Assembly (NCBI GenBank): GCA_030650195.1 | Contig: JAUSEP010000005.1 | Location: 1 to 38,713, forward strand | Direction: 5' to 3' | DNA length: 38,713 nt | Origin: Candidatus Berkelbacteria bacterium | GTDB lineage: Bacteria > Patescibacteriota > UBA1384 > 2-12-FULL-50-11 | In this document: positions 112-35,242 of the stretch, piece by piece | Numbering within the stretch: position 1 is the stretch's first letter | Layout: every line of letters begins with the position of its first letter | Position numbers and translations under genes: made by a program | The notes under the pieces: model-generated | The model's input: only the letters and a program-made list of their open reading frames with translations | What the model was told of the DNA's origin: nothing | Database searches by the model: none

Positions 112-196
112 AGTTCTAGTTTCCTTCACGGTTCGGAGCAGTAACTTTTAGAGGCCGGGAATGAGCTACCTTAATCTATTGGATATTGAGTTTTGT

Positions 197-1586: not shown

Positions 1587-1853
1587 ATGAAGTATTTTGA
1601 GTTAGCCGAGGAGGAGCAAGAGATACTCGACTCAGTGGAACGAGGCGAGTGGAAGTCAGTTGAGGATTTGAGCAAAACTAAAAACAAGCTACGAGAGACA
1701 GCGCGCGCTACCCTCAACAAGACCAGAAACATCAATATTCGTCTTTCAGAACGGGTTCTGCAGAAGCTGAAGGTGCGGGCCCAACGAGAAGGCATTCCGT
1801 ACCAAACTTTGGCCGCTTCAATCCTTCACCGTGACACCAACGGACAACGTTAG
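1587..1853 (+). CDS. CopG/BrnA-like antitoxin, ribbon-helix-helix (no toxin partner beside it)
   Basis: 88 aa; C-terminal half nearly identical to 6641..6907 (NINIRLSERVLQKLKVRAQREGIPYQTLAASILHRDTN). Confidence 0.75.
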   Translation: MKYFELAEEEQEILDSVERGEWKSVEDLSKTKNKLRETARATLNKTRNINIRLSERVLQKLKVRAQREGIPYQTLAASILHRDTNGQR

Positions 1854-1889
1854 CTCGACATTTCCAGGTTCGAGAGTACAATTTGAGAA
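1851..1889 (+). promoter_or_regulatory. Promoter cartridge copy: TAG-CTCGACA-N16-TACAAT
   Basis: TCGACA 1855-1860, 16 bp, TACAAT 1877-1882, ATG at 1890; CTCGA...TCGAG dyad in spacer. Confidence 0.75.
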
Positions 1890-2372
1890 ATGGCACTCCA
1901 TCCTCCTAGACGTATTTCGAGTACCGAAGGTCTGGGAATCAACACCGAAAAGCAGCTAGATTATGTGAGTGGGTTACTCGCATACGGAACAGAAACTTGG
2001 GGCGAACTAGAGAAACCGTGGCGACAAGACAATACGATTATCGCTCTTCCGGGTTACGTTTGGAGGACTAGATGGGAAGTTGGCAAGCCTTACATAATCA
2101 ATAAGTATTTAGATGACAAAGGAGAGCTTATTGGTATTTACTGCGACATTACCCGTCCCGTCGAGAAAACTGAAGATGGTTTCGCTTTTGACGATCTCTA
2201 TTTGGATGTTTGGCAGATTCAAGGAGGAGAACCGGTCATTCTTGATGAAGAAGAACTCGAGGATGCGGTAAAAGCAGGTTATATAAGCCTAGAAGAAGCC
2301 AGCACTGCACGCTCAGAAGCAGAGAAAGTAAAAGAGCTCTTGCTCACTAAGCCAGGTCTACTTGAGTTCTAA
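1890..2372 (+). CDS. DUF402 domain-like protein
   Basis: 160 aa; YCDITRPVEK...FDDLYLDVWQIQGGEPVILDEEELEDA resembles DUF402. Confidence 0.6.
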   Translation: MALHPPRRISSTEGLGINTEKQLDYVSGLLAYGTETWGELEKPWRQDNTIIALPGYVWRTRWEVGKPYIINKYLDDKGELIGIYCDITRPVEKTEDGFAFDDLYLDVWQIQGGEPVILDEEELEDAVKAGYISLEEASTARSEAEKVKELLLTKPGLLEF

Positions 2373-2412
2373 CGTCCTCCACGATCCAAAGTAGAAGTGT
2401 ATAGTGATACCA

Positions 2413-2751
2413 ATGGAAAATAAAACAAACGGTAATTCGAATACGGCAAAGTTAGTAGTAATAGGCGCGAGCGCTGCGGCAGCAGTTGCGGCATATTTCT
2501 TTCTGGGGCCTGACGGCAAGGCGCATCAGAAACACGCCAAGGCATGGGCAATAAAGATGAAGAGTGAAGTAGTAGAGAGACTGGAAGCGGCACGTGAAGT
2601 AAGCGAGCCAGCTTATCACACAATCATCGACGGCGTGGCGGCCGAGTTTACCAAGGCAATGAGCGGTGATCGCAAAGATATCGACGCTTTGGCGGCGGAT
2701 CTGAAAAAGCACTGGAAGATGCTCGCTGATGCAGCAGGATCGAAGTCGTAG
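2413..2751 (+). CDS. Small hypothetical protein with N-terminal TM segment (YtxH-like)
   Basis: ATG at 2413 inside ORF 2404..2751; TATAGT at 2400-2405 leaves a 7-nt gap to ATG. Confidence 0.6.
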   Translation: MENKTNGNSNTAKLVVIGASAAAAVAAYFFLGPDGKAHQKHAKAWAIKMKSEVVERLEAAREVSEPAYHTIIDGVAAEFTKAMSGDRKDIDALAADLKKHWKMLADAAGSKS

Positions 2752-2807
2752 AGAACTGTCCTTGTATTGCCTGTGAATAGGTACATGCTGAACAAAAGGA
2801 GCAAAAT

Positions 2808-3074
2808 ATGGGTTGGATTGTATTAATTATAGTTGGAGCAGTAATCGGTTGGGTTGCGAGCATGATAATGAACACGGACGAGCAGCAGGGTGCTCTAGCC
2901 AATATTGGCATCGGTATTGTTGGTTCGTTGCTGGGAAGTTGGCTATTTGGTTCGGTGTTGAAGATTGGTACCGCTACCGTAGCAGGAGAGCTTAGTTTCT
3001 GGGGGATTGTTTGGGGAGTAGTCGGATCGGTGGTACTGATTATCATCTTGAAGGCCTTAAAGGTACTCAAATAA
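2808..3074 (+). CDS. GlsB/YeaQ/YmgE family membrane protein
   Basis: 88 aa, Gly-rich TM helices [21 protein letters not shown]...[16 protein letters not shown]-like AAAGGAGC upstream. Confidence 0.8.
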
Positions 3075-3490
3075 TGCCTATAGAAGTTCAAAAAGAAGTT
3101 ACCAGTGCCAGCGAGGGTCCGGTTTCTGACCAAGTCAGTCAAACTGCTACCACCGCTCAAGTCTCAACGAACGCTGAAGTTCAGGACGCTCACTCGGATC
3201 GGGGTAATGCCTGGATATGGTATATCGTCGGGATCATCGATCTCTTGCTAGTGCTAGATTTGGTATTCAAATTGTTTGGTGCCAAGGCCGTTGGTTTTAC
3301 CAACTTCCTTTATAGCATTACCAATTTCTTCGCAGCGCCGTTCCGAGGAATATTCCCTAACCCAAATGTAGAAGGAGCTCACTTCGATACCGCCGCTTTG
3401 GTGGCGATCGTGGTCTATATTCTAGTCGGATGGCTAATCTCCCGCCTAATTGACCTAGCGACAAGACCGGCCGGCAGCGCCAAGGCTTAG
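3074..3490 (+). CDS. YggT-family membrane protein
   Basis: ATG overlaps the previous TAA (TAATG); TM helices and FFAAPFRGIFPN motif; ORF in track opens at 3011. Confidence 0.65.
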   Translation: MPIEVQKEVTSASEGPVSDQVSQTATTAQVSTNAEVQDAHSDRGNAWIWYIVGIIDLLLVLDLVFKLFGAKAVGFTNFLYSITNFFAAPFRGIFPNPNVEGAHFDTAALVAIVVYILVGWLISRLIDLATRPAGSAKA

Positions 3491-3525
3491 CTCGACGTTT
3501 CTAGGTTCGGGAGTATAATCTAGGA
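3488..3525 (+). promoter_or_regulatory. Promoter cartridge copy: TAG-CTCGACG-N16-TATAAT
   Basis: TCGACG 3492-3497, TATAAT 3514-3519, ATG 3526. Confidence 0.8.
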
Positions 3526-4002
3526 ATGTATAACCACGCACCAGACGACTATATTTGCCCGATCTGTATAGCTATAGAGGGTATTGAAGATGACCGGACG
3601 ATGATCCGAAAATCAGATATTGTTTACCAAGACGATTTAGTAACCGTTTTTATTGGCTCGTTCTTTGTTGCCGACAATCCTGGTCATCCAATTATCGTGC
3701 CGAATAAGCATTACGAAAACTTATACGACCTACCCGACCCAGAGGCACATCAAATTATTTCTGTCTCGCGACTAATTGCCCAGGCGCTGAAAATAAGCCA
3801 TTCGTGCGATGGAGTTACGATTAGACAGAATAATGAACCCGCAAGCAGTCAACACGCGTTCCATTATCACATGCACCTATTCCCTCGCTACGATGGGGAC
3901 GACTTTGACAAGAAAATAAGTACAAGTCGAAAAAGTACGGCGGAAGAGCGGCTACCATACGCTGACAAATTACGAGCCGCTATTAAGCGGGTGCAGAGTT
4001 AG
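3526..4002 (+). CDS. HIT family protein
   Basis: CPICIAIEG N-terminus, GHPIIVPNKHYENLYDLP, and histidine motif HAFHYHMHLFPRY. Confidence 0.85.
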   Translation: MYNHAPDDYICPICIAIEGIEDDRTMIRKSDIVYQDDLVTVFIGSFFVADNPGHPIIVPNKHYENLYDLPDPEAHQIISVSRLIAQALKISHSCDGVTIRQNNEPASSQHAFHYHMHLFPRYDGDDFDKKISTSRKSTAEERLPYADKLRAAIKRVQS

Positions 4003-4038
4003 CTCGACATTTCCACTTAGGCTCGTCACCATTAATTA
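4000..4038 (+). promoter_or_regulatory. Promoter cartridge copy, weaker -10
   Basis: TAGCTCGACATTTCC at 4000; TCGACA 4004-4009; CACCAT about 6 nt before ATG 4039. Confidence 0.55.
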
Positions 4039-4836
4039 ATGAGCGGGACAAGAAAAATCTTTCTGTTTGTTGCCTTGCCGTTAATAATCGTCTTTGGTGC
4101 CCTAGCGGTTTACCTCTTCTCTAGCAACTTCACCGGGCAAACAACATCCTCGACAACTAAGGGAACTGCTTCTGAAAAAGATGAGCCCCCAAAGTTGAAA
4201 AGTCTTGGTTTCAACCTGGACTACTACGACCCAGTTACCAATCGAGCCGGTGACTTTCACTTCACCCCGGGATTGGCTAAGACGTTAAGTGGTGACCCTA
4301 ACTATCAAAAGTTTATTTGGAGCGATTATGGCATTCAGGATGCCCGAAGTCCTGACGATCCAACTAAACGTAATGTCCAGCCAACTTTCTATTTACCCCT
4401 AGGAACAAAAGTTTTGGCACCGATTGATGGCGAGGTAGTAACAGTCAAAACTCTTTATTCGAACGATTACACGATTTGGTTTGCAACCAATAAAAACTAC
4501 ACTTGGAGCTATGAAATGGAACATGTCATTAATCCGATCGTGAAGGTTGGGGATAAAGTGACCGCAGGTCAAGTGGTAGCGGAAGTGAGTACTCACAACT
4601 CAGAGTTCAATACCGGTTTTGGAATTGTGGAAATCGGCCTCTTCCACCCAGTAAATAATGAGCCGACGCACTGGTGCCCGTTTGCTCACTGGGACGATTC
4701 GATTAAAGAGGAGATGGGCAAGAAGATCACCGCCCTCCACGCCGCCTGGGAAAGTTACTTGAATGATGAGTCAATCTACAATGATGCTAATTACCCGGTG
4801 CCTGGTTGCGCTACCCTCGAACCATCCAAAGGTTAG
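4039..4836 (+). CDS. Membrane-anchored M23/LytM-fold-like protein, paralogue of 9665..10480
   Basis: MSGTRKIFLFVALPLIIVF anchor; PLGTKVLAPIDGEVV...VKVGDKVTAGQVVAEVS LytM-like core; the usual HxH segment reads GIVEIGLF. Confidence 0.65.
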   Translation: MSGTRKIFLFVALPLIIVFGALAVYLFSSNFTGQTTSSTTKGTASEKDEPPKLKSLGFNLDYYDPVTNRAGDFHFTPGLAKTLSGDPNYQKFIWSDYGIQDARSPDDPTKRNVQPTFYLPLGTKVLAPIDGEVVTVKTLYSNDYTIWFATNKNYTWSYEMEHVINPIVKVGDKVTAGQVVAEVSTHNSEFNTGFGIVEIGLFHPVNNEPTHWCPFAHWDDSIKEEMGKKITALHAAWESYLNDESIYNDANYPVPGCATLEPSKG

Positions 4837-4994
4837 TGGCTCGACATTCGCGGTTCTAGCGATCCCTACGGTTCGTAATAAAGATCTAACACTCTGCGGC
4901 CAAGCCGTCGACATATGAACAGCAGTTTTTTATTTTCACAAAAGTTAATTGGCAATATAATTAGAACTTATTTAAAAACTAAGTAAAATTAGAC

Positions 4995-6278
4995 TTGATG
5001 AGTGAAAAGGGGTTTTCAAAAGTAATCTTGTTGGGCATTATTGCCGTTCTTGCCTTAGCTGGGGGGATTTTGCTGTTTCTAGGAAGAAACTTTCCCAACA
5101 CGGATAGCAAAAAAGCGGAAGAGATAGCAAGTAAGGCTGAAAACAATTATTTTGAAGACGTATCACAGTTGCCTTCCTGTGGAGATAAAAAGGAATTGTT
5201 TACCGCACTACCACTAGCGGTTGAGAATTTTACAACAATTGATCCCCTGGGACTTGTATCACCAACAGCACATACATTTCCGGCTCCCCACATATATTTT
5301 AGAATTAAAAGAGAAGGTACTGGCTTCGATGCCCCCGTGGCCAAAGTTCCGTTATACGCACCGGCAGATATTACGCTCACAAAGATTAATCTAATACGAG
5401 CCGTAAACAGTCAGGAGTTTACTGACGATGCAGCTGTCCATTTTGCGCTCTGTTCGGAAGTTAAGGCATACTTTGACCACGTGGTTAATTTAGCTCCAAG
5501 ACTACAAACTGCTTACGACACAGCCCCCGCTGGTAATTGCGACGAATATACGCTTACTTACAAGAGTGGGCCCGTTAACTGGAAAAAATGTGACAAAAAA
5601 ATTGAGCTGATTATTTCCAGAGGGGAGTTGATTGGTTATGCGGGCGGGGGGCAAGCACAAGCGGCGCTTGACTTTGGGACGTTTGATTCGAGAATTAAAC
5701 CCAACAATTATGCAAGCTCCAAAAGATCCTTTAGAGACGAACTTCCATATAGTGTTTGCCCGCTTGATTACTTCTCAGATAATCTGTCGGGTTTCTATAG
5801 GCCAAAACTCGGGGGATACGGATTGTCCCAGACAAGCGACGCCATTATTTCGTCTCCTACTTGCGGGAAAGCTCTTCAAGACATCCCGGGCACTGCAAAA
5901 GGCAATTGGTTTGTGCTAGGTGTCGACACGGCCAGATCTAGTCATGAACCACCTCACTTGGCTCTAGTGCAAGGACACATCCAACAGGACTTACAAGTAT
6001 TTTCTAGTGGTGATTCAACCCAAAAAAGCGGACTAGGTTCTGGGGTGTACTACTTCACTCCCTTGGATTCGGGTTTGGTTAATAGAGATTTCTCGCAAGT
6101 TAAACCAGATGGAAACGTTTATTGTTACAACACAAAAAATAACTACAAAGAAGATGAACCTACGACAATAATTATTCAACTCACAAATTCGGAAACCTTA
6201 AGAATCGAAAGGGAAGAGGCGTCCAGTTGCAATAACGGCCCATGGACTTTTGATAAAGAGACAGAATTTGATAGATAG
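4995..6278 (+). CDS. Secreted/anchored hypothetical protein, distant relative of 10481..11611
   Basis: 427 aa, N-terminal TM; shared CPxxYF...SGF...CGxxxxDxPGTxxGxWF pattern with 10481 ORF; ATG option at 4998. Confidence 0.65.
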   Translation: MMSEKGFSKVILLGIIAVLALAGGILLFLGRNFPNTDSKKAEEIASKAENNYFEDVSQLPSCGDKKELFTALPLAVENFTTIDPLGLVSPTAHTFPAPHIYFRIKREGTGFDAPVAKVPLYAPADITLTKINLIRAVNSQEFTDDAAVHFALCSEVKAYFDHVVNLAPRLQTAYDTAPAGNCDEYTLTYKSGPVNWKKCDKKIELIISRGELIGYAGGGQAQAALDFGTFDSRIKPNNYASSKRSFRDELPYSVCPLDYFSDNLSGFYRPKLGGYGLSQTSDAIISSPTCGKALQDIPGTAKGNWFVLGVDTARSSHEPPHLALVQGHIQQDLQVFSSGDSTQKSGLGSGVYYFTPLDSGLVNRDFSQVKPDGNVYCYNTKNNYKEDEPTTIIIQLTNSETLRIEREEASSCNNGPWTFDKETEFDR

Positions 6279-6285
6279 AAGGGCT

Positions 6286-6358
6286 TAGCTCGACACTTCC
6301 TGGTTCGGGAGTAGCGCTTCCATTGACAAAACATATCTTTCGTCATAACATCTAATGT
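6286..6358 (+). promoter_or_regulatory. Degenerate promoter cartridge followed by TTGACA-N17-TAACAT promoter
   Basis: TAGCTCGACACTTCCTGGTTCGGGAGTAGCGC (6286-6317), then TTGACA 6323-6328 and TAACAT 6346-6351, ATG 6359. Confidence 0.65.
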
Positions 6359-6634
6359 ATGAAGTATCTCAGCTGGGACGAAGCTAAAAATACCCAGTTG
6401 AGATTAGAACGTGATGTATCTTTCGAAGATGTGGTTACGGCAATTGATGATGGGCGGTTACTGGATAACACTGCTCACCCAAACCAAGAGCGTTATCCAG
6501 GTCAAAGGTTTTATATTGTCGACATAGAACATTATGCCTACCTTGTCCCCTATGTTGAGGACGAACAAAAAATTTTTCTTAAAACAATAATCCCAAGCCG
6601 TAAGGCAACAAAAAAATATATAATCGATAAATAA
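6359..6634 (+). CDS. BrnT-like toxin
   Basis: 91 aa; WDEAKN...FEDVVTAIDDG...YPGQRFYIVDI...TIIPSRKATKKYI layout of BrnT; followed by CopG-like partner. Confidence 0.6.
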   Translation: MKYLSWDEAKNTQLRLERDVSFEDVVTAIDDGRLLDNTAHPNQERYPGQRFYIVDIEHYAYLVPYVEDEQKIFLKTIIPSRKATKKYIIDK

Positions 6635-6640
6635 ATAAGA

Positions 6641-6907
6641 ATGAAATACTACGAGTTAGATAAAGAAGAGGAGCAAATCGTCAAGGACTTTGAAGCTGGC
6701 AAGCTGGTGCGTGTCAAGGACTTTGCCAAACATCAAAAGGAGCTTCGTCAAGCAGTTCGTGCTACCCTGAACAAGACAAAAAACATCAATATTCGCCTTT
6801 CAGAACGGGTGCTGCAGAAGTTGAAGGTACGGGCACAACGAGAAGGGATTCCTTACCAAACCTTGGCCGCTTCAATCCTTCATCGTGACACCAACGCACA
6901 AAATTAG
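6641..6907 (+). CDS. CopG/BrnA-like antitoxin
   Basis: 88 aa, starts 6 bp after the toxin gene; RHH-like C-terminus; paralogue of 1587..1853. Confidence 0.7.
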   Translation: MKYYELDKEEEQIVKDFEAGKLVRVKDFAKHQKELRQAVRATLNKTKNINIRLSERVLQKLKVRAQREGIPYQTLAASILHRDTNAQN

Positions 6908-6942
6908 CTCGACACTTTCTGGTTCGAGAGTACAATTTGAGA
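6905..6942 (+). promoter_or_regulatory. Promoter cartridge copy: TAG-CTCGACA-N16-TACAAT
   Basis: TCGACA 6909-6914, TACAAT 6931-6936, ATG 6943. Confidence 0.8.
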
Positions 6943-7209
6943 ATGAATAACAACACGCCACTTCCTGTTACACATCGTATATACGCCAGGATATTTGAGC
7001 TACTTGAGACTTACCCAGGAGGTCTGCATTGGTCAGAGCTACTATTAAAAACCAAGGGATCGGACGGTAGTTTTCACCCCAAAACGGTCAACGGCTGTAT
7101 CTGGAAACTGATCGAAAAATTTCCCGACAAAGTCTACAAACCATCTAAAGGACTTTTTCAATTGGTGAAATACAAAGCAACTATCAGAGGTGATGACCCC
7201 ACGAGCTAG
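6943..7209 (+). CDS. Small winged-helix-like protein
   Basis: ATG at 6943 within ORF 6937..7209; HRIYARIFELLETYPGGLHWSELLLKTKG...PKTVNGCIWKL suggests wHTH. Confidence 0.5.
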   Translation: MNNNTPLPVTHRIYARIFELLETYPGGLHWSELLLKTKGSDGSFHPKTVNGCIWKLIEKFPDKVYKPSKGLFQLVKYKATIRGDDPTS

Positions 7210-7245
7210 CTCGACAATCCCGAGTTCGGGAGTAGAATACAGTTG
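7207..7245 (+). promoter_or_regulatory. Promoter cartridge copy: TAG-CTCGACA-N16-TAGAAT
   Basis: TCGACA 7211-7216, TAGAAT 7233-7238, ATG 7246. Confidence 0.8.
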
Positions 7246-7716
7246 ATGAAAATACTATTGATTGTCGTTGCTGTCCTAGCGGTTTTGGTTTTGGGCAAGG
7301 TACTTCTAGACGACAAAGATTCCCAACCATCACCATCAACCACTGCCACCGAAACGCCAGACTCTCCGGCGGCCGAAGTAACGGAAGAGTCATCAAAGGC
7401 AGATCTTATTCAGGTCAATTCGCCCAAAACCGGCGATCAAATCACCAGCCCGGTCATTATTACGGGTAAAGCCAGGGGGGTATGGTACTTCGAAGCCAGT
7501 TTTCCGATAACGATTTTAGACGAGACCGGCAGAGCTCTTGGACGGGGTCACGCCGAGGCCAAAAGCGATTGGATGACAAGCGAGTTTGTTCCCTTCACAG
7601 CATTAATAACATTTACGCAACCAACGACTAAAACAGGAACAATTCTACTAGAGAAAGATAATCCCTCCGGATTACCAGAAAAAGCAGATTCGATCGAGAT
7701 CCTCATAAAGTTTTAG
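7246..7716 (+). CDS. Lipid/membrane-anchored Gmad2-like immunoglobulin-fold protein
   Basis: N-terminal TM; VNSPKTGDQITSPVIITGKARGVWYFEASFPITILD...LGRGHAEA resembles Gmad2. Confidence 0.65.
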   Translation: MKILLIVVAVLAVLVLGKVLLDDKDSQPSPSTTATETPDSPAAEVTEESSKADLIQVNSPKTGDQITSPVIITGKARGVWYFEASFPITILDETGRALGRGHAEAKSDWMTSEFVPFTALITFTQPTTKTGTILLEKDNPSGLPEKADSIEILIKF

Positions 7717-7753
7717 TGACTGGTTCGGCTCGATATCCTCGGGCTGGGGAAAC

Positions 7754-8791
7754 TCAGAACGTAGCGCAATAGAAATACGCCTTCAGATTGACCGCGTCAT
7801 CGGTTCGGTTGTAGACGGCTGTCGTCCACTTGGAATTATTGATGTTGAAGTACGAGGAGAAGGCTTCGGCTTTAGAGGCAAAGCCACCCATAATCGCTAG
7901 TCCGCTATCGCAAGATTTGGCTTTAGTCCACGTCCATCCCGTTGGAACGCTATCTGTAAGAAGGGTCTGGACAACACTTACGCTACCCCCTGAATAACAG
8001 TTAGTTAAAACTTTAAGTGTTCGATCACCCAGGACTTCGCTTTCCGCATTCACCCGCCATCCGTTATCAACTTTGGCTGAAAAAGTAATTGCCAGTTCGT
8101 TCTGAATGTTGTCAAAACCACCGCTAACAACAGTACTACCGCTTGGGCAATCTTTGTTAATAGTCCCGTTGCTTGTGGTAGCGATAGTGGTAGTGGCAGT
8201 CGTAACACTAATTGAGCCAGGGACGTTGTCCACACATTGCGCAAAGACAAAAACATTGGACGAGCTCAAGGTGCCGTTGACGGCTCTAACATACCAGCCG
8301 TTATTAGTTAAATAACTTGCAAAGAACCGAGTACTTTCGGCGGCGCGAAATCCACCTCCGACTGCGATTGTGCCAGAAGGACAAGTAGCCGTAACTGAGT
8401 CAAACGCCACAGCACCAAAGTTCTTTGAGTTCGTAACAGTGCTTAGAGCCGGCTGAGAAGCGACCGCGGTTGAACCTGAACCAGAAGATGATCCCGTTCC
8501 AGAGTTATCAGAGGATGAACCAGTAGTCCCGCCAGTCGAATCAACCGATCCAGATGCGGGTGAGCCAGTTGGATTACTTGCATCTTGCTCGTCGGCAATA
8601 TCACCACCACTTTTTTTAGCAGTGGGAGATACTGTTTCGGAATCGGTAGCTACTGTGTTAGTGGTTGATGACGTCTGTCTCATAACTACCCAAGTCAACC
8701 CAATTAAAACCAGGCCTCCCAGAATTATCGCGAGCAGACGCTTTTGACTAGAAGTCCAATTTTTCATTGAACCAAACATCACATTCATCAT
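7754..8791 (-). CDS. Membrane-anchored Ser/Gly-linker protein with three Cys-containing repeats
   Basis: 345 aa; TM anchor, low-complexity GSGSSSG linker, repeated C(P/D)SGx(x)(x)(V/M)(S/G)GGF motifs. Confidence 0.7.
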   Translation of the reverse strand: MMNVMFGSMKNWTSSQKRLLAIILGGLVLIGLTWVVMRQTSSTTNTVATDSETVSPTAKKSGGDIADEQDASNPTGSPASGSVDSTGGTTGSSSDNSGTGSSSGSGSTAVASQPALSTVTNSKNFGAVAFDSVTATCPSGTIAVGGGFRAAESTRFFASYLTNNGWYVRAVNGTLSSSNVFVFAQCVDNVPGSISVTTATTTIATTSNGTINKDCPSGSTVVSGGFDNIQNELAITFSAKVDNGWRVNAESEVLGDRTLKVLTNCYSGGSVSVVQTLLTDSVPTGWTWTKAKSCDSGLAIMGGFASKAEAFSSYFNINNSKWTTAVYNRTDDAVNLKAYFYCATF

Positions 8792-8819
8792 AACTAAAAG
8801 AAATTAGAAAACAAAAACT

Positions 8820-9596
8820 TTATTGTCTGGGCTCAACGTAACCGGTCAGTCGAACTTCGTCGGAAGATTCATCGTAAGAACTCGAACGAACAAACTGCTC
8901 ACCATTACATTGAAGTGGGTTTGCATCACGTTGGGATTTACTAATCATAAAATCCTCCCGGCTCTCTGCTCCTCGATCGATATAGGCTTGAAATAAATTA
9001 TCTGGCAGTACTTGAAAATACGATACGGCCTGTTTGGTCCATGGGGCCAATCCTTCTATGGCAATATCTGTACCTTGTTGGGCGCCAATTACCCCAATCT
9101 GCTGTCCGGCTTTAACTTCTGTTCCGCTGTTGATGCCGTCAGATAAGTAAATATGAAAGAGTCTGACTTTGTATTCTGGGGCTTTATCGGAACGGATCCA
9201 AACTTGTTTTCCAATAGGAGTATTCTCTTCCGAGACGCTCGTAATTTTGCCGTCAACGGGACTATAAATCGAGATGTCAGTTTTTCCGTCTGGCGGTGGT
9301 GGTAGGCCGTTAGTGCTGTTGCGGCGCCAGTTATTGGTCGGGTCAGCTATCGGCGTAAAGTAGTGTTTCATGCTGCGGCAAGTTTCACCGTTAGCGGCGT
9401 AGTCGTGCCCAGCACCGGAGCGATACTTAGAAATTGAGCCGATGCGGCTTAAGTCTATAAATTCGGCTTGTATAAATTGTGGCGGGTTTTCGACATCAAT
9501 ACTGCCCACACCTCCACCCAATTTGAAGAAACCTATCCCAGCAACTAAAATTATGGCCACAACCAGCCCAACCCAAAACTTCCAGTTTCTCCACAT
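8820..9596 (-). CDS. Membrane-anchored M23/LytM-fold-like protein
   Basis: MWRNWKFWVGLVVAIILVAG anchor; SPVDGKITSVSEE...GTEVKAGQQIGVIGAQQGTDIAIE; ORF in track opens at 9614. Confidence 0.65.
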   Translation of the reverse strand: MWRNWKFWVGLVVAIILVAGIGFFKLGGGVGSIDVENPPQFIQAEFIDLSRIGSISKYRSGAGHDYAANGETCRSMKHYFTPIADPTNNWRRNSTNGLPPPPDGKTDISIYSPVDGKITSVSEENTPIGKQVWIRSDKAPEYKVRLFHIYLSDGINSGTEVKAGQQIGVIGAQQGTDIAIEGLAPWTKQAVSYFQVLPDNLFQAYIDRGAESREDFMISKSQRDANPLQCNGEQFVRSSSYDESSDEVRLTGYVEPRQ

Positions 9597-9626
9597 ACAA
9601 CCAGAATACAGCATTTATCAATTAGT

Positions 9627-9664
9627 AGCTCGACATTTTCATTCTTAATCATTACGCTAGTTAT
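9627..9664 (+). promoter_or_regulatory. Promoter cartridge copy: CTCGACA-N17-TACGCT
   Basis: TCGACA 9630-9635, TACGCT 9653-9658, ATG 9665. Confidence 0.65.
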
Positions 9665-10480
9665 ATGAGCCGGACACGAAAAATATTTCTTTTTGTTGTT
9701 TTGCCGCTATTGGTCATGTTCGCAATTTTGGCGTTTTGGCTACTCGGCAATCAATCCACCAAAACTACCGGTAACAGTGCGACAACAATTCCCGCCGCCA
9801 ATAGCTCGGCCAAGACCAAAACCAGCAAGTCGGACGGTCCAACGCTCAAAATCAAGTCTCTTGGTATTAATCTAGCCCCCTTCGACCCGGCGACGGGCAT
9901 GGCGGGGGATTTGGAGTTCACCAAAACCAAGTTCACTTCCGGCATTCAGCTCTTGTTCTCGGATTTTGGCTATGTCATAAAGGCGGCCAATTCGGCTTCG
10001 GGCCAAGACAAATCCAATCCCCAACCCACGTTTATTGCCCCACTTGGCACCAAAGTAATGTCGCTGGTGGACGGCGTAGTGTTTAACGTGCCCAAGCTTT
10101 ACTCAAACGACTACTCGGTACAGGTTTATGATGGAGAAGACGCCACTTGGGTCTATGAGACCGAGCACATTATCAACGTGACGGTCAAAAAGGGCGACAA
10201 AGTTAAGGCCGGCCAGGTTGTTGGGGAAGTCAGTGATTACTCCGCTCACGGATACGACGGCCAGGGGTTATTTGAAATCGGCCTGCTTAAAGGCGGGCAA
10301 ACACCACAACATTTCTGCCCGTTCAGTTACCTCGATGAATCGATTAAAGACACCACCCTTAAGCAGCTCTCGGCCTTGATGAAATCCTGGGAAGAATACC
10401 GCGGCGACATGACGCTTTATCCGGACGAGTCCACTTACCCGATACTTGGTTGCCTCACCCTCGATCCGATTAACGGATAG
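9665..10480 (+). CDS. Membrane-anchored M23/LytM-fold-like protein, paralogue of 4039..4836
   Basis: MSRTRKIFLFVVLPLLVMF; PLGTKVMSLVDGVV...VKKGDKVKAGQVVGEVSDYS...GLFEIGLL. Confidence 0.7.
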   Translation: MSRTRKIFLFVVLPLLVMFAILAFWLLGNQSTKTTGNSATTIPAANSSAKTKTSKSDGPTLKIKSLGINLAPFDPATGMAGDLEFTKTKFTSGIQLLFSDFGYVIKAANSASGQDKSNPQPTFIAPLGTKVMSLVDGVVFNVPKLYSNDYSVQVYDGEDATWVYETEHIINVTVKKGDKVKAGQVVGEVSDYSAHGYDGQGLFEIGLLKGGQTPQHFCPFSYLDESIKDTTLKQLSALMKSWEEYRGDMTLYPDESTYPILGCLTLDPING

Positions 10481-11611
10481 ATGCCCAAGACCCGTAAAGT
10501 TTTTCTCTTTATTGCTCTGCCGCTGGTGATTATTTTCGTGGCGGTAATCGTTTGGGCAACTAGGAACCGCGCTACGCCGACAAGGAGTAGCGCCACCGAC
10601 ACCAACCAGGAAGTCGTCAAGACGGACGCAACAAAGACTGAATTCACTGCCCAAATTTTCGACCCGTTGCTAATTAGCCACATCGCTCCGCTTGGCGAGC
10701 TCAATGGAGGGGGTTCGGAGTGGCAGGCGACGACAGGGGTGATGATTAACATCAAGCCGACCGTCGTCACTGGAGATAAAATGATTGACGTTTTTGCCCC
10801 GACGGCAATGACCCTTGAGTCCTATTCATACCATAAAGATCCACGCAGCAACGGCAATGCCGATTGGACGCTGATTTTTCGCGTCAACCAGAACATAACA
10901 ATAAAATTCGACCATATTACCAAAGCGGTTGATAAGATTGTTGCCGTCACAACTTCAACACCGAAAGACCGTTCCAATGAAGAAGCGCCGAGAAGTAAAA
11001 TTAGTTTTGAGGCGGGCGAGCTGATCGCCCAGACTTTCGGCACCAAACTTGCCCACAACTGGAATATTTATATGACCGATAAGACTGTGAAGAATATTTT
11101 TGCTAACCAAGAACGCTACGAGAAAAGCCAAATTGGTTACAGATTCATTAATGGCGCCTGCCCTTTCAATTACTACGAGGAAAGCATCAACGCAGGTTTT
11201 ATTGCCCTGATGGGTGCAACCAAAGCTGGGCAGTCTCCTGATTGCGGCAACCCCTCAAACGACGTACCTGGGATGCTCTCTGGAACCTGGTTTTTTGATG
11301 AGCAGATTGAAAAAACCGAGGAACAGCTCGATGGAAATTTTGCCTCTCCTCTGTCAATTTACAAAGATTCGGCTAACCGCGTTATTATCGACCTCATTGC
11401 CAACACCCAATTTCGAGTTGAGGGTGGAATCGATCCAGCTACTGTCAGCACCGAGCAATGTTACGGCTTAGCTAACAGGGACAGCGGCCGAACTTCCGGT
11501 TATGCCTACTTTAAATTAGTTTCGCCGACAGTCATGAAGCTTGCTTATAGCGCCTCCGGTTCCTGCCCAACCAGTTTCCCAGAAACCAACAACAAAACTT
11601 ACTATCGCTAG
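10481..11611 (+). CDS. Membrane-anchored hypothetical protein (M23-like neighbour family)
   Basis: 376 aa, MPKTRKVFLFIALPLVIIF; start immediately follows the TAG of the previous gene. Confidence 0.7.
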   Translation: MPKTRKVFLFIALPLVIIFVAVIVWATRNRATPTRSSATDTNQEVVKTDATKTEFTAQIFDPLLISHIAPLGELNGGGSEWQATTGVMINIKPTVVTGDKMIDVFAPTAMTLESYSYHKDPRSNGNADWTLIFRVNQNITIKFDHITKAVDKIVAVTTSTPKDRSNEEAPRSKISFEAGELIAQTFGTKLAHNWNIYMTDKTVKNIFANQERYEKSQIGYRFINGACPFNYYEESINAGFIALMGATKAGQSPDCGNPSNDVPGMLSGTWFFDEQIEKTEEQLDGNFASPLSIYKDSANRVIIDLIANTQFRVEGGIDPATVSTEQCYGLANRDSGRTSGYAYFKLVSPTVMKLAYSASGSCPTSFPETNNKTYYR

Positions 11612-11648
11612 CTCGACTTTTCTGACCGATAGCCGCTACACTTAGTTA
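11609..11648 (+). promoter_or_regulatory. Promoter cartridge copy: TAG-CTCGACT-N18-TACACT
   Basis: TCGACT 11613-11618, TACACT 11637-11642, ATG 11649. Confidence 0.65.
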
Positions 11649-11828: not shown

Positions 11829-12098
11829 ATGACGACAGGAACGAAAGCAAGAATCATTCCTGAGGCCGTCGAACCAGCCGATCTTAGGGATGCGCTTAAA
11901 GCAATGGAGGACCTAATAGTGGAGGTTTACGTTGCCAGTACGTACGGAGAATGCGCCGTACGACTACCAGAAGGAGTAACCGTCCCCGTTTTCTCCTGTG
12001 AGCTACCGTATGAAGAAGGTAGAGAAGGTGGGCGCTACATCAATTTGCCGTTGGAATGTTTAGAATGTGTCGAGGAGGTCGTCCTACTGGTAGGATAG
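11829..12098 (+). CDS. Small hypothetical protein
   Basis: 89 aa ORF, GGAGG-like upstream (aggaggcgtcATG). Confidence 0.5.
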   Translation: MTTGTKARIIPEAVEPADLRDALKAMEDLIVEVYVASTYGECAVRLPEGVTVPVFSCELPYEEGREGGRYINLPLECLECVEEVVLLVG

Positions 12099-12154
12099 CC
12101 ACCCTCCAACAACACCGCTTGGCCCGTAAGGGTCGAGCGGCTTCTTTGGAAGAC

Positions 12155-12182
12155 TCGACAATCAGCCTCTCAAGCGTAAAAT
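12155..12182 (+). promoter_or_regulatory. pyrD promoter TCGACA-N16-TAAAAT
   Basis: TCGACA 12155-12160, TAAAAT 12177-12182, ATG 12191. Confidence 0.6.
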
Positions 12183-12190
12183 CATATCCG

Positions 12191-13261
12191 ATGGGTCGAA
12201 TAACAACATCTCTAATTGCGACTGCTTATAGGTTCGTGGTTCGACCGATACTCTTTAAACGTGATCCGGAAGTTGCTCATAAAAAGATCACTTCTCTAGG
12301 AGAAAGGATCGGTCAGCGCCGATTACCGTTATCAATCCTTCGATTTTTATTCGGTACTAGAAGTTCCAGGCTTAAAAAGGTTGTGGCTGGAATTGAGTTT
12401 CCCTCTCCGATCGGTCTGGCTGCTGGTTTTGATTACCAGGCCAAATTGCCTTGGGTTTTAGAAGCCCTCGGGTTTGGTTTTGCTACCGTTGGTACTATCA
12501 CAAACCGCCCTTGTCTGGGCAATCCTCGACCGTGGTTGGCCCGATTGGTTAAATCTCAGTCTTTACTTGTGAATAAAGGGTTTAAAAATGACGGTATTGT
12601 TAAAACCCTGCCTCGACTTAGGCATCTACCAACTGGTATGCCGGTTGGTCTGAGTATCGGTCAGACTAACACTAGCGAAATCGATACTGAGTCTCAGGCC
12701 ATAAATGATATTGTTGAATGTTTTAAGTATGCCGAATCCCATAAGTATGACTGTAGATATTACGAGCTCAATATTAGCTGTCCAAACGTCCAAAAACATA
12801 TCTCGTTTTACACGCCTTCTTCACTGAGTAAGCTTCTCGAATGTCTTGAAAAAGTAAATACAACTCGACCGATTTTTATTAAATGCCCCATTAGCGTTAC
12901 GGATGCGGAATTAATCAATATTGCTGATACAACAAGTAAGTATTCTATTGTTTCTGGCTTGGTAATCGGTAACTTACAGCGAGATCGGAACCATCCTTCG
13001 TTACGAAAGGAAGAGCTGGTTAAATGTGGCCCAGGTAATCTTAGTGGTCGCCCAACACGAGATCGCTCAACCGAATTAATAAAAATTGTTCGGTCAAAAT
13101 ATGGCCAACGTTTTGCCATTATTGGTTGTGGTGGGGTCTTTAGCATTGAGGATGCCGAGGCTAAATTCGCCGCTGGTGCTGATCTAGTCCAGCTGATTAC
13201 AGGCCTGATTTTCCAAGGTCCTCAGTTAGTTGCGCAAATTAACGGAGAATTGGTTAAATAA
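12191..13261 (+). CDS. pyrD: Dihydroorotate dehydrogenase (class 2-like)
   Basis: PIGLAAGFD, FATVGTITNRPCLGNPRPW, NKGFKNDG, YELNISCPN, IIGCGGVFS motifs. Confidence 0.9.
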   Translation: MGRITTSLIATAYRFVVRPILFKRDPEVAHKKITSLGERIGQRRLPLSILRFLFGTRSSRLKKVVAGIEFPSPIGLAAGFDYQAKLPWVLEALGFGFATVGTITNRPCLGNPRPWLARLVKSQSLLVNKGFKNDGIVKTLPRLRHLPTGMPVGLSIGQTNTSEIDTESQAINDIVECFKYAESHKYDCRYYELNISCPNVQKHISFYTPSSLSKLLECLEKVNTTRPIFIKCPISVTDAELINIADTTSKYSIVSGLVIGNLQRDRNHPSLRKEELVKCGPGNLSGRPTRDRSTELIKIVRSKYGQRFAIIGCGGVFSIEDAEAKFAAGADLVQLITGLIFQGPQLVAQINGELVK

Positions 13262-15079: not shown

Positions 15080-17623
15080 ATAAAAAATATATCATTCATT
15101 AAAAAAAGCATTGGCTTATTAGTGGGAGTGGCCACTGCTTCCATCTTCGCACTCGCATTGTCGATTGCGGCTCCCATGGCGGCGTTGGCCGCCTCCGCTG
15201 ACAACGTAGTTGGAACATTCACTATCTACAACGCGGCTGGTCAGAACTGGGGATCACATTTCTACGACAACGGGGACTTGAACATCGCTACAGATGGTAT
15301 CATGAACCTTGTTGCTCCAAACCGAGTTGGTGTTTCTAACGCCTTGTTCGTCTACGGCGGACCACTCGTAGTCTCTGGAACCGCTCAAGCCGGGACATTT
15401 AACGTCGTCAGCCGACTTAACGTCGACGCTGGCGGTACTGTTGCCTTCGGATCTGGTGTGACCTTCTCTGGTCTACCTGTTGCCGCTGGTGCAATAGCAT
15501 TAGCTCCGACCGCGGCCCAGACACTTCTGCCAACTGGCAATACAGTGCCTTTGGCTATTCAGTTAGCATCAGGTGGTAACACTAACATCTTGAACTTGAA
15601 TAGCGCTGCTGGAACAACCGTAGTTAGCTTCGGCGCTACTGGTAACACAGCCATTTCAGGAACCTTGGCAGTTACCAATGACGCTACCTTCGCTGGTAAC
15701 GTCACATTGGGTGATGCCGCTGGTGACACAATCACCTTCACAGGCACACCGACATTCGCTGCCTTGAACGCTACTTCTGTTACTGCCAACACCCTTGCTG
15801 GTTCAGCAGTTACAAGCACTGGCGCTCTATACAACAACATCACCACTGGTGCTGTTGGTCTGGCAACTGGTCTAACGACCGGTAACTTGACCGTTGGTGG
15901 CGCTCAAACGACCGGTACAATTACCGTTGGTGTTGCGACCCAAACAGGGAACGTAGTCATCCACGGTGGTGTCACTGGTGGAGCAAATACGCTGTTTAGT
16001 GGTTCAACCACTTCAACAATCGCTATGGGTGGCTCGCTAACCACAGGTACTATGACCCTGGGTAACGCTGCCATGACCGGCGCAACCGTTCTAAGCGGTG
16101 GTACAACTGCTGCTAACACGATCTTCGCTGGAACAACAACTGGTTCGATCACCATGGGTGCTGGTCTAACGACTGGTACTTACACTCTAGGTGTCGCAAC
16201 TCAGACCGGCGCAGCCGTTCTAAGCGGTGGTACAACTGCTGCTAACACGATCTTCGCTGGTGTAACAACTGGTTCGATCACTCTGGGTGCTGGTAACACA
16301 ACCGGTAACATCACAATTGGTAACGCTGCTGCTACAAGCGGTATCACAGTTATCAACGGTGGTACGACTGCCGCGAACACCTTGTTCAACGGCACGACAA
16401 CTGGTTCGATCGCGTCTGGTGCTGCTTTGACAACTGGTAACTTCACAATTGGTAACGCTGCAGCTACGACAAGCCAAACCATTATCAATGGTGGCTTAAC
16501 TTCAACAACTGCTGCTCCAAACCAATTGTTCCCGAACACCACGACAGGTAATATGTCGATTGGTCAAGGTTTGACAACCGGTGGCTTATGGATCGGTGGC
16601 GGCGTAATTGCTGCTGGCGTAATCAACGTTGCTAACGGTACGGTTGCTGGTGCTGCCTCTGGTGGTGCTCAGACAATCAACATTGCTGGTGCCCTTGCGA
16701 CCGGTGGTGTCTCGACAATCAACATTGGTACAGCTGCTGCTGCTAACGTCGTAACCATGGGTTCAACCAACGGTGCGGCTTCAACAACAATCCACGCTGG
16801 TACCGGTGGTTTGGTACTCGGTAACTCTGCTGCCGCTCGCACATGGAGCGTTGGTACTGGTGCCGCTGTTCAAACAGTCAACATGTTCACAGGTAACGCT
16901 GCTCACACCATCGTTATGGGTTACGGTACTGCCGGTGTAGCTGGCACAACCACAATCCACGCTGGTACAGGTGGCTTGAACCTTGCTACCACAGCTGACG
17001 CTCGAACGATCGCTATTGGTACAGGTAATGCTGCTCAGACCTGGAATCTTGGTTCTGGTGGTGGCATTCAGACAGCCAACTTGTTCACCAGTAACGCCGC
17101 CAATGTTATCATCATTGGTAACGCTACGGCTGGCGGAGCTTCTGCAACCACAATCCACGCTGGTACAGGTGGCTTGAACCTAGGTACAACGGCTGATGCT
17201 CGAACGATCGCTATTGGTACTGGTGCCGCCATTCAGACGGTCAACCTTGCCACTGGTGACGTTGCTAATGTCATCACCATGGGTGACATCACCGGCGCTC
17301 CTGTCGGCACAGTCCGACTATCTGGTGCTACTGTCACCATCCAAGGTGGACTCAACTTCTTTGTTGATGCACAGATAAGCGACACCTATGTCCTTACCCT
17401 GGCGCCGGCTCTAACCGGTTATGTGGCTGGACAGATGATAGTCTTCACTGTTGCTACAGCGAACACTGGTGCGGCAACGGTCAATGTTAACGGCTTAGGT
17501 GCAGTTGCCCTGAACAAAGGCGCCGACGCTGCCTTAGCTACCAATGACCTGATCGTTAACCGAACTTACATCGCTGTCTACGACGGTACGGCCTTCGACG
17601 TCATTAACCCAGCAACTCAGTAG
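15080..17623 (+). CDS. Large secreted repeat protein (surface adhesin/fibre-like) with tail-fibre-like C-terminus
   Basis: ORF in track starts at GTG 15122, but the in-frame upstream extension from ATA 15080 gives KNISFIKKSIGLLVGVATASIFALALSIAAPMAALA signal peptide 5 nt after AAGGAGG; many TTGxITMGxGLTTGTxTLGxAxxTG repeats. Confidence 0.75.
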   Translation: MKNISFIKKSIGLLVGVATASIFALALSIAAPMAALAASADNVVGTFTIYNAAGQNWGSHFYDNGDLNIATDGIMNLVAPNRVGVSNALFVYGGPLVVSGTAQAGTFNVVSRLNVDAGGTVAFGSGVTFSGLPVAAGAIALAPTAAQTLLPTGNTVPLAIQLASGGNTNILNLNSAAGTTVVSFGATGNTAISGTLAVTNDATFAGNVTLGDAAGDTITFTGTPTFAALNATSVTANTLAGSAVTSTGALYNNITTGAVGLATGLTTGNLTVGGAQTTGTITVGVATQTGNVVIHGGVTGGANTLFSGSTTSTIAMGGSLTTGTMTLGNAAMTGATVLSGGTTAANTIFAGTTTGSITMGAGLTTGTYTLGVATQTGAAVLSGGTTAANTIFAGVTTGSITLGAGNTTGNITIGNAAATSGITVINGGTTAANTLFNGTTTGSIASGAALTTGNFTIGNAAATTSQTIINGGLTSTTAAPNQLFPNTTTGNMSIGQGLTTGGLWIGGGVIAAGVINVANGTVAGAASGGAQTINIAGALATGGVSTINIGTAAAANVVTMGSTNGAASTTIHAGTGGLVLGNSAAARTWSVGTGAAVQTVNMFTGNAAHTIVMGYGTAGVAGTTTIHAGTGGLNLATTADARTIAIGTGNAAQTWNLGSGGGIQTANLFTSNAANVIIIGNATAGGASATTIHAGTGGLNLGTTADARTIAIGTGAAIQTVNLATGDVANVITMGDITGAPVGTVRLSGATVTIQGGLNFFVDAQISDTYVLTLAPALTGYVAGQMIVFTVATANTGAATVNVNGLGAVALNKGADAALATNDLIVNRTYIAVYDGTAFDVINPATQ
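15644..17280 (+). repeat. Degenerate in-frame coding repeats
   Basis: e.g. gttctaagcggtggtacaactgctgctaacacgatcttcgctgg occurs twice (~16.09 and ~16.22 kb); acaatccacgctggtacaggtggcttgaacct twice (~16.96 and ~17.15 kb). Confidence 0.8.
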
Positions 17624-30392: not shown

Positions 30393-31064
30393 ATGGATGC
30401 TAGCCTACTTAAGTACCCAAAGAAAAGTCATAGAAAAATGGTTAAGTTACCAGAAGATAGTGTCGAACTGGCCGAGTTTATGGGAATCATGGCTGGCGAT
30501 GGCGGTGTTAGTAACCCCTGGCAATTTGCAATTACTGTCAATTCAATAGCTGATAGAATCTACGCAGAGTATATAAAAAACCTTATCTTTCGATTATTTA
30601 AACTCGAGATTCGATTTATGGAGCGAGAGCGCCACGCACTAGTAATTGTTTGTTCGAGCACAACCGTTCTCGACTTTCTAATCGACAGGGGATTTACACG
30701 AGGCGACAAAATACGACTCGGGATCGGCTTCCCTTCATGGGTTCATAAGAAAGCTAGTTACGAGAAAGCTTTCGTGAGAGGGCTAATGGATACCGATGGC
30801 TGTCTCTTTATCCATAAACACAGAGTTGCGGGGAAAGAATACCGGAATCTGGGATTAACCTTTACTAGCTTTGCCCCCGGACTTGTCGGTGGGATGGCTA
30901 AAGCTCTTCAAAATAACGGAATTACTCCTCATTTTTCTAACGATAGAAGGTCGATCTATTTATATAAGGTGGAATCAGTAGTAAAATACCTTAGTATTTT
31001 CGGATCTTCCAACCCCCGGATCACTCGAAAGTACGAAGAATGGAGAGGTGTCCGAGTGGCTTAA
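30393..31064 (+). CDS. Stand-alone LAGLIDADG homing endonuclease-like protein
   Basis: LAEFMGIMAGDGG and AFVRGLMDTDGCLFI motifs; TACAAT 30381-30386 six nt before ATG; stop codon lies inside tRNA-Ser. Confidence 0.8.
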   Translation: MDASLLKYPKKSHRKMVKLPEDSVELAEFMGIMAGDGGVSNPWQFAITVNSIADRIYAEYIKNLIFRLFKLEIRFMERERHALVIVCSSTTVLDFLIDRGFTRGDKIRLGIGFPSWVHKKASYEKAFVRGLMDTDGCLFIHKHRVAGKEYRNLGLTFTSFAPGLVGGMAKALQNNGITPHFSNDRRSIYLYKVESVVKYLSIFGSSNPRITRKYEEWRGVRVA

Positions 31065-32697
31065 GGGCCGCGCTTGGAAAGCGCGTATATCCGAAAGGGT
31101 ATCGAGGGTTCGAATCCCTCCCTCTCCGCTGACTGGGATTTTTGGGGTCTGAGTCACCACCGTCAACCTGTTGTCTAGCCTCTTTGAGGGGTTCTAACGT
31201 GGCCAATTTGAGAAGCGTCGGGTCTGGCCTGATGGTCAACTTTCCCAGAGTGAGAACATAGGACTCAGCCAGAACCGAGGCGATCTCCCGCTGCTCCTCG
31301 ATGGTGGCGGTTGGGAACATGGGTGGAGCTTCGTTGAGAAACTGAACGGCCCGTCGAACTGCTCGCGCGTTGCCGGCGGTGACTTTACTTGTCTTCTCGA
31401 TCGAGTTGCCGAGGTCCGTCAGTTCGTTCTGGTAGCGCTTCTTTCTCTGAGCGAATTCTTCAGCGGTGACCTCGTTGTTTTCCCGCATGAGATAAAGGGA
31501 GTCGAGTCGGCGCTCGATGTCCTGCCGCGTGGTCTGCTTACGCTCTTTTATGGCTCCTTCGAACCCATGAGATACCTGCTCCTCTCGGTCAATGGCCACA
31601 TCTGCGATGGCTTTTGCCTCATCGGCAACGTGCCAGGTGTTCAGCAGGCCAGAAATTCGCCTGAGGAGGTACTTCTCCGAGACGCTCTGGTAGGGACAGC
31701 CTTTGCGGCCGGTACAGTGATAGTAGACGTACTCGGCACTCCGACCCGTGGTCCAGTAGTGCTTCGACTTACGTTCCGCAGTGATCAAGCAGCCGCAGAC
31801 ACCGCACCGAATCATGCCGGTGAAAGCGAACTTGTGCTTCTTTCGAGGAATCCGGTTCGTGCCCTTGATCAGCTCTTGGACCCGGTTGAACTCCTCTTCG
31901 GTCACCATCGGCTTGTGGGTCCCCTTTCGCCATTCGCTTCCGTAGAAGAAGGTTCCGGCATAGAACGGGTTGTCGAACAGGCGATACAAAGATGATCTGC
32001 CCATCGGCATTCGTCCACGGCCTTGGCGCGTTGGTAACGAGAGATATCCCCAGCCATTCAGCTCGGCGCAAACCTGGGGCACCGAGTAGGCACCAGTCAA
32101 CATGAGATCCCACGCCCGCCGAATCAGGGGAGATCGCTCTGGATCGGTTTCGATGCTTCGAATCTCTTTGCCTTCGACGATCCTGATGACGTTTCGATAG
32201 CCGGGTTTGGCTTGAGTCGGCCAACAGCCACGCTCGGCTTTTTCATGAAGGCCGCGCTTGACGTTGACGCTGAGCTCTCGTACCTGTTGGGTGGCACTGG
32301 CTTCCTCGACCGCGAGCAGCAGCGAGTTGTCACTCGGCCTAAACTCCCGGTCAACAGTCCGGATTGATTGAATGATGCCCTCTTGGAGCAGCCACCGGAT
32401 CTTGCCGCCAAGGACGATGCTTTCGGCTTCAGTCTCAATCGCGTCGAGCTGAGCCGGCGTATGGTGGTTTCGGCCAAAGGCCGCATCCACGCAGCCCAGC
32501 TTGGCGCCGAGCAGCTTGACGTTTCCATAAAGCCAGAGACCGCTCACGTCGTCAAAGAAGGGCGATCCCTCGTAGTCGAGGATGCAAGGCGGAATGTGCA
32601 TCTGGCGCTTCTCTTTGGCGCTGAGGACTCGGCTGCCGTAAGCAGGCGCAAGCGCGCCAGTAGCGGACAAAGGGGAAGACATAGCTCTCACCTCCAA
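31021..32697 (-). CDS. Large serine recombinase relative; recombinase and zinc-ribbon domains present, catalytic N-terminus not recognisable; C-term tail reads antisense into tRNA-Ser
   Basis: LSVNVKRGLHEKAERGCWPTQAKPGYRN, YRLFDNPFYAGTFFYG, FAFTGMIRCGVCGCLITAERK, YVYYHCTGRKG; no YxRxS motif in first ~100 aa. Confidence 0.8.
   Translation of the reverse strand: MEVRAMSSPLSATGALAPAYGSRVLSAKEKRQMHIPPCILDYEGSPFFDDVSGLWLYGNVKLLGAKLGCVDAAFGRNHHTPAQLDAIETEAESIVLGGKIRWLLQEGIIQSIRTVDREFRPSDNSLLLAVEEASATQQVRELSVNVKRGLHEKAERGCWPTQAKPGYRNVIRIVEGKEIRSIETDPERSPLIRRAWDLMLTGAYSVPQVCAELNGWGYLSLPTRQGRGRMPMGRSSLYRLFDNPFYAGTFFYGSEWRKGTHKPMVTEEEFNRVQELIKGTNRIPRKKHKFAFTGMIRCGVCGCLITAERKSKHYWTTGRSAEYVYYHCTGRKGCPYQSVSEKYLLRRISGLLNTWHVADEAKAIADVAIDREEQVSHGFEGAIKERKQTTRQDIERRLDSLYLMRENNEVTAEEFAQRKKRYQNELTDLGNSIEKTSKVTAGNARAVRRAVQFLNEAPPMFPTATIEEQREIASVLAESYVLTLGKLTIRPDPTLLKLATLEPLKEARQQVDGGDSDPKNPSQRRGRDSNPRYPFGYTRFPSAALKPLGHLSILRTFE
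31042..31128 (+). tRNA. tRNA-Ser (anticodon GGA), CCA not encoded
   Basis: GGAGAGG acceptor/CCTCTCC; anticodon stem CGCGC-TTGGAAA-GCGCG (anticodon 31076-31078); long variable arm; T-loop GGGTTCGAATCCC. Confidence 0.97.
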
Positions 32698-34516: not shown

Positions 34517-35242
34517 TCACCGATCGGCGATTGCGGTTCGAATTGCATCCAAGATGGGCAGCCATTTTCCAATTTCGCGATTGTCACCATCGATTTCGAT
34601 CGTTTGAAGCATTGTTTTGAACGGTTCTTGAAGGCAAAGTTGGACTGATCCGTTCTCCAACTGGCAGTTCGAACATAGAGAATTGAGGATTTCTCGTTTC
34701 TCCTTCGAAGTGGCCCTTTCGAACCTGGAATGGCAGTTCGAACCTAATTCCAGAAGGGTCACGCCCAGCTCATAATACGACGACTGAGCTTTGCCCAGGC
34801 TTGAAAGTAGAAGCCGACAGGCATTGAGCTCTTCTTCCCACTTGAGCTTGAGCTTGTCGAAGATGGCCATGGGGACTTGGCCGGACATCTTGTCCAGATA
34901 CAACATCTCCAACTTGCCTTCGAGGCTCTTGGCTTCATTTTCCAGAGTCTCTCGCTGTTCGTCGTGAAAGGCTCGCTCTTCCTCAAAGCTCTCTTGCAGA
35001 GCCCCACGGAGCATCTCCAGTATCTCCGCGTCGATATGCAGGCGCCCAAGGAGGTCTGAGACCTGGGCGGTAACTGCCTTTTCTTCGACACACTTCTGAC
35101 CCGGGCACCTGCCTCTCTTTCCGGTGCAGTGGTAGTAGACGTATTTTCCTTTCCTTCTCTCTGATGTGATAGCACAGCCGCAGTGGGCACAGGTGAAGAT
35201 GCCCTTGGCAAAAGGAAGTACATTGTTCGAAGAACAAGTAAA
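34517..35242 (-). pseudogene. C-terminal fragment of a second large serine recombinase
   Basis: In-frame reading upstream of ORF 34517..35014 gives VLPFAKGIFTCAHCGCAITSERRKGKYVYYHCTGKRGRCPGQKCVEEKAV...; catalytic and recombinase domains absent. Confidence 0.75.

Follow-up and report, generated by a model that had tools for sequence, protein, structure and literature searches.

Promoter-gene units in a probable modular array downstream of tRNA-Asn in a Berkelbacteria family

Integron attC sites carry the consensus boxes R'/R'' (GTTRRRY / RYYYAAC), and the pdif/Xer modules of Acinetobacter plasmids have dif-like sites with 28-bp inverted arms in alternating orientation. Mobile promoters, or promoter propagation, were reportedly described by Matus-Garcia, Nijveen and van Passel in 2012. 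Most integron cassettes have no promoter of their own (PMC9024848, PMC8946536), and clusters of attC sites without an integrase (CALINs) are common (PMC9024848). No paper on integrons in Berkelbacteria, and none on leaderless promoters in Patescibacteria, was found in literature searches. Berkelbacteria are a family of tiny uncultured bacteria in which unrelated small genes lie head-to-tail, each behind a putative 36-base promoter sequence. This arrangement was studied in one genome (G000; 787 kb, 100 contigs), of which the window, i.e. the whole 38,713-nucleotide stretch analysed, is contig C42, and in seven other genomes of the family (G001 to G007), mostly drafts, with movement deduced from comparison across genera. 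The locus probably consists of promoter-gene units in a modular array, and the region downstream of tRNA-Asn would be a hot spot for them in this family.

A preliminary description of the window had claimed a recurring cartridge of about 36 bp, shared by at least seven junctions. The cartridge is real, with five full copies at ≤3 mismatches (starts 1854, 3491, 6289, 6908 and 7210), zero being expected by chance at that threshold in shuffled window sequence, and with a further four that comprise just the left half. The junctions at 1851, 3488, 6286, 6905 and 7207 share the full motif, while those at 4000 and 11609 share only its left (-35) half. The variants placed at ~4837 and ~9627 likewise have the left half (weak at 4837) and not the full motif, the one at ~7727 was not convincing, and the site at ~112-160, supposed to be degraded, has a divergent sequence and is not a full copy. 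After TAGCTCGACATTTCC, the copies at 4000, 9626 and 11609 continue with another spacer and a -10 of their own (TACGCT/TACACT type at 9626 and 11609), the -35/-10 distance being unchanged. The 29-base core CTCGACAnTTCnnGGTTCGnGAGTAnnnT has eight matches at ≤3 mismatches in the whole 787-kb genome, all on one strand, five of them in the window and three in contig C50 (3,959 bases). The last 141 bases of C50 are identical to the 141 with which the window opens, so that C50 and the window are very probably parts of a single same-strand array, which reaches upstream into C50 and holds 8/8 of the full copies in the genome.

Among 35 copies from six genomes, CTCGAC is almost invariant, followed in conservation by GGTT, GGAG, TA and AAT. 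The spacer GGTTCGGGAG retains 1.05-2.0 bits per position, in agreement with its claimed conservation, and the CTCGA/TCGAG dyad said to lie in it is present but imperfect, with a weak fold. Most copies can be read as a -35 TCGACA, 16 bp, a -10 TAnAAT and 6/7 nt to the ATG; this spacing fits a leaderless sigma-70 promoter, for which 16-18 bp between the boxes and 6-10 nt from the -10 to the ATG are expected. Judged from the sequence, the 36 bp would be a sigma-70-type promoter giving a leaderless mRNA, and its spacer may be bound by a regulator or serve as an exchange boundary. TAnnnT is enriched 6-10 nt before the ATG genome-wide in the samples from G000 and G002, and leaderless promoters look common in both. 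The proposed unit would read CTCGACATTTCCA-GGTTCGGGAG-TAnAAT-6/7 nt-ATG-gene(s)-stop, with units stacked stop-to-start on one strand and the next -35 placed directly after the previous stop, usually TAG. As had been claimed, the TAG is the stop codon of the upstream gene at exactly six junctions (1851, 3488, 4000, 6905, 7207 and 11609), where the distance from stop to next start is 36, 35, 36, 35, 36 and 37 nt, respectively; the TAG at 6286 is the exception, as the preceding gene ends earlier, at 6278. Stops abutting sites are TAG in 19/23 cases, a count that includes related sites and so has an optimistic probability and an inflated significance, against a background of 24% in G000 and 33% in G002. 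Background stops, like background promoters, were sampled from stretches of genome.

All features of the array in the window are on the + strand. The divergent or degraded site (AGTTCTAGTTTCCTTCACGGTTCGGAGCA, 112..160) follows a HAD gene, and a similar form occurs in G004 (L048:12300). At 197-293, a near-perfect inverted repeat (20-nt arms, 95%) containing GGTTACGTA units lies upstream of a HATPase/STAS-like pair and is a possible operator. Copy 1 of a CopG-type antitoxin gene (1587..1853; PF12441, 2.8e-8) has no BrnT partner, and its DNA homology to copy 2 extends to 1889, adjoining the following ATG; it is followed by a full site (1851..1889: stop TAG, CTCGACA, spacer, TACAAT and 7 nt to ATG 1890) that heads a DUF402 gene (1890..2372; PF04167, 2.1e-13). 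The Transgly_assoc and YGGT gene pair (2808..3490), which is intact in G001 and G004 beside other neighbours, is followed by a full site (3488..3525, stop TAG to ATG 3526), a HIT-domain gene (3526..4002; PF01230, 1.7e-16), a left half only with a different spacer and -10 (4000..4038), an M23 peptidase gene with the N-terminus MSGTRKIFLF (4039..4836; PF01551, 1.1e-8) and the weak left half TGGCTCGACATTCGC (4837..4851). Next listed is the full site whose TAG is not a stop codon and whose -10 is poor (TAGCGC; 6286..6317), and then a BrnT-like/CopG toxin-antitoxin pair (6359..6907; PF04365, 3.2e-8, just under the cut-off), kept in G001 between other neighbours. A full site (6905..6942) precedes a small gene of unassigned function (6943..7209), which is flanked by other genes where it occurs in G004 and G006, and another (7207..7245) precedes the gene of a Gmad2-domain protein (7246..7716; PF10648, 1.7e-14). 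Of the remaining left halves, one is followed by a TACGCT -10 and ATG (9626..9664), and the other (11609..11648) precedes what is left of the 5' end of a broken TRKIFLF-type gene. The right flank begins with what we take to be a pyrD-like gene (12056..13261, +), collinear with G001.

Proteins of different kinds have in common the N-terminus MSxTRKIFLFVALPL and a distinct upstream -10 (genes at 4039, 9665, 10481 and 11649 in the window, the last a broken 5' remnant; L040:7395; L042:7894; L050:7, 1023 and 2812), and the left-half-only copies at 4000, 9626 and 11609 precede genes of this type or the remnant of one. Across the arrays, the accessory cargo comprises toxin-antitoxin, HIT, Ham1, methyltransferase, GNAT, HAD, Mrr, isochorismatase and dCMP deaminase genes. 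Some array genes have no site, and some gene families occur site-free, e.g. Transgly_assoc/YGGT in G001. Elsewhere in the window, an 833-aa protein with tandem 66-132 nt repeats (15122-17623) is 75% identical in G001, and the right end contains serine recombinase genes and a tRNA-Ser (31021-32682 (-), 31042-31129 (+), 34517-35014 (-), 38387-38713 (+)), which perhaps belong to an integrated element with no connection to the array.

The preliminary description had proposed modular cassettes, each carrying its own promoter, and comparison with relatives supports this. G000 and G001, which belong to the same genus, have the same six flank genes in collinear order, while their arrays differ by a transposition of HIT and most array genes are present in one of the two only. 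At the HIT gene the two genomes share sequence through TAGCTCGACATTTCCA and then diverge to different genes, and the CopG gene also has a different next gene in each. The dCMP-deaminase-like gene lies inside the array in G002, and between hicA (identified by Pfam) and a gene presumed by eye to be valS in G000 (C38) and G001 (C2). Homology of this unit has exact boundaries, from the first base of CTCGAC to the stop codon of the gene, and it appears to have changed its place in the genome together with its promoter. Modular gain and loss, whose absence had been named as evidence against the proposal, is thus represented by this relocation and by the different genes following HIT and CopG. Sites heading orthologous genes are 86-97% identical (mean 92%, from five pairs that are not independent) vs 81% for random pairs, suggesting that each unit carries its own promoter, which would belong to and travel with the downstream gene, so that the unit would be promoter plus gene. 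A different view of the left half, as a promoter-independent element tied to the upstream gene, was first favoured and then dropped, because left-half-only copies keep the -35/-10 spacing and the dCMP-deaminase-like unit starts at CTCGAC. Concerted homogenisation within genomes is slight, copies being 82% identical within genomes and 81% between them.

A rival reading is a family-specific regulated promoter, i.e. a regulon in which the spacer is the operator of one regulator and the clustering reflects nothing more than accumulation of accessory genes at a tRNA-Asn hot spot, with no special process that moves units together with their promoters. When G000 and G001 are compared, the isolated site adjacent to valS matches at 28/29 positions, with no array there to homogenise it, which suggests constraint in place, and the dyad-like spacer and the leaderless spacing likewise count in favour of a regulon. 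However, some observations would not be expected from a promoter alone: the homology boundary that coincides with the -35 edge, the enrichment of TAG at the preceding stop, and a site shared by unrelated cargo in several genera. We consider a regulon of this kind rather unlikely, and the regulatory and modular readings are compatible, not exclusive.

The motif is restricted to the family, being found in 0/91 genomes of the phylum outside it. It is present in 5/7 other members, clustered in G001, G002, G005 and G006 and as one copy in G004, and G003 and G007 have none. The possibility of a general genome promoter, which the preliminary description had itself raised, was rejected, since all eight copies lie in one array and the motif is near-absent upstream of non-array genes: CTCGACA precedes 2/126 sampled non-array genes in G000 and 0/145 in G002, and TAGCTCGAC precedes none of either sample. 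A phage origin was rejected on zero exact matches in 2.9 million viral contigs. G001 has a second site cluster (C74; L041:12232-15813) upstream of genes adjoining what we take, by eye, to be ftsA and ftsZ, and no motif was found at the corresponding position in G000.

Long forms of the site, with 25-57 nt between the two halves, occur in G001, G004 and G006 (L040:1257 and 4410; L044:12556, 15200 and 19773; L050:2184 and 6106; L048:10620; centre 25-57 nt or longer). Such a centre puts the -35 out of reach of the -10, and either the long forms are not promoters like the short ones or their left half serves a different purpose. Three genera share the 25-nt centre, whose exact matches are confined to array sites, so that it is not a dispersed REP; an origin from REP/Y1 transposases was rejected on this ground and on the absence of Y1_Tnp from G000 and G002.

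The array is located downstream of tRNA-Asn(GTT) in G002, G004, G005 and G006, and the left flank of this locus is shared among relatives. The first site of G005 lies ~25 bases beyond the end of the tRNA. Between tRNA and array, G006 has a ~9-kb serine-recombinase block, beside which lies a LOOT sRNA (RF03000; L044:5833-5961). A group I intron (Rfam RF00028) splits the tRNA-Asn in G004 (L048:8919-9175) and G006 (L044:615-877). In G002, G004 and G005 a variable region lies directly 3' of the tRNA, with a shared left flank, as in tRNA-anchored islands, and the corresponding tRNA-Asn is followed by other genes in G003 and G007. Since the tRNA-Asn of G000 was not recovered from the draft assembly (an assembly gap), the array would adjoin it there by analogy.

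Membership of the integrons or CALINs was rejected on intI, attI and attC boxes. The right half GGTTCGGGAG gives GTTCGGG, with C and G where GTTRRRY needs R and Y, and the left half GCTCGAC is one position off RYYYAAC. No intI was found, nor an attI next to one, the arrays beginning at tRNA-Asn instead, and the integron integrase model TIGR02249 gave 0/55 class genomes over its 265-bit cut-off. A decayed, CALIN-like integron, whose sites are unusual attC and whose integrase is lost, is improbable: besides the missing integrase and the GTTCGGG box, in its usual form the site measures no more than 23-29 bp and folds weakly (about -2 to -5 kcal/mol), the long forms fold differently from one another and have no conserved single hairpin, and the site appears to include a promoter and to accompany the downstream gene. 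In its favour are the one-way array of accessory genes, the sites overlapping stop codons, the variable-length centre between conserved ends in the long forms, and the commonness of integrase-free CALINs (PMC9024848).

In G001 (C24) and G006, large serine recombinases occupy the tRNA-Asn end, and the window has them at its far end. They might suggest that the sites serve an active recombinase of an unrecognised kind or a large serine recombinase element at tRNA-Asn, a reading that is highly improbable. The G006 element is a separate block of ~9 kb between tRNA and array, and G002 (a single contig, 95% complete) has an array of 6-7 sites and neither PF00589 nor the large serine recombinase family PF07508. 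Family genomes searched with PF00589 contain at most one tyrosine recombinase each, outside the array, and G001 and G002 have none.

As no recombinase accounts for the arrays, general recombination between shared junctions would be the most economical route for the modular array. Units would be swapped by recombination between shared junction sequences, through a RecA-type process after DNA uptake or through an as yet unnamed recombinase, and exchange at a junction would always leave an intact stop, promoter and start, so that a gene could be expressed on arrival. Promoter activity and movement are both predictions from sequence comparison. More tentatively, the locus may be a gene-capture platform outside integrons, in which the junction combines stop, promoter and recombination site downstream of tRNA-Asn and is used by an unrecognised recombinase or by ordinary junction recombination. 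Patescibacteria genomes are tiny, and the array would show gene gain without an integrase. A leaderless promoter for each acquired gene would bypass the integron limit, by which the first cassettes alone are expressed, and the TAG/CTCGAC junction offers a precise, countable marker of gene gain and loss in uncultured populations.

The array works like a cassette array, and by the features tested it is not an integron. Like integrons and CALINs, it has small accessory genes in one orientation at a single chromosomal locus, gene ends marked by a recurring junction that in many cases overlaps the stop codon, and turnover of content; unlike them, it is without IntI, attI and GTTRRRY/RYYYAAC boxes, and its junction is a short putative promoter travelling with the downstream gene. 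The pdif/Xer modules also consist of gene-sized units bounded by short repeated sites, whereas the Berkelbacteria sites are co-oriented putative promoters with no dif similarity by eye. Islands anchored at tRNA genes by serine or tyrosine integrases resemble it in the variable region directly 3' of tRNA-Asn and in the serine-recombinase elements of G001 and G006, but the array is split into gene-sized units by the repeated putative promoter, and that of G002 is without an integrase. Mobile promoters share with it a near-identical promoter sequence before unrelated genes of one genome; by contrast, in Berkelbacteria promoter and gene would move together, stacked stop-to-start at one tRNA locus.
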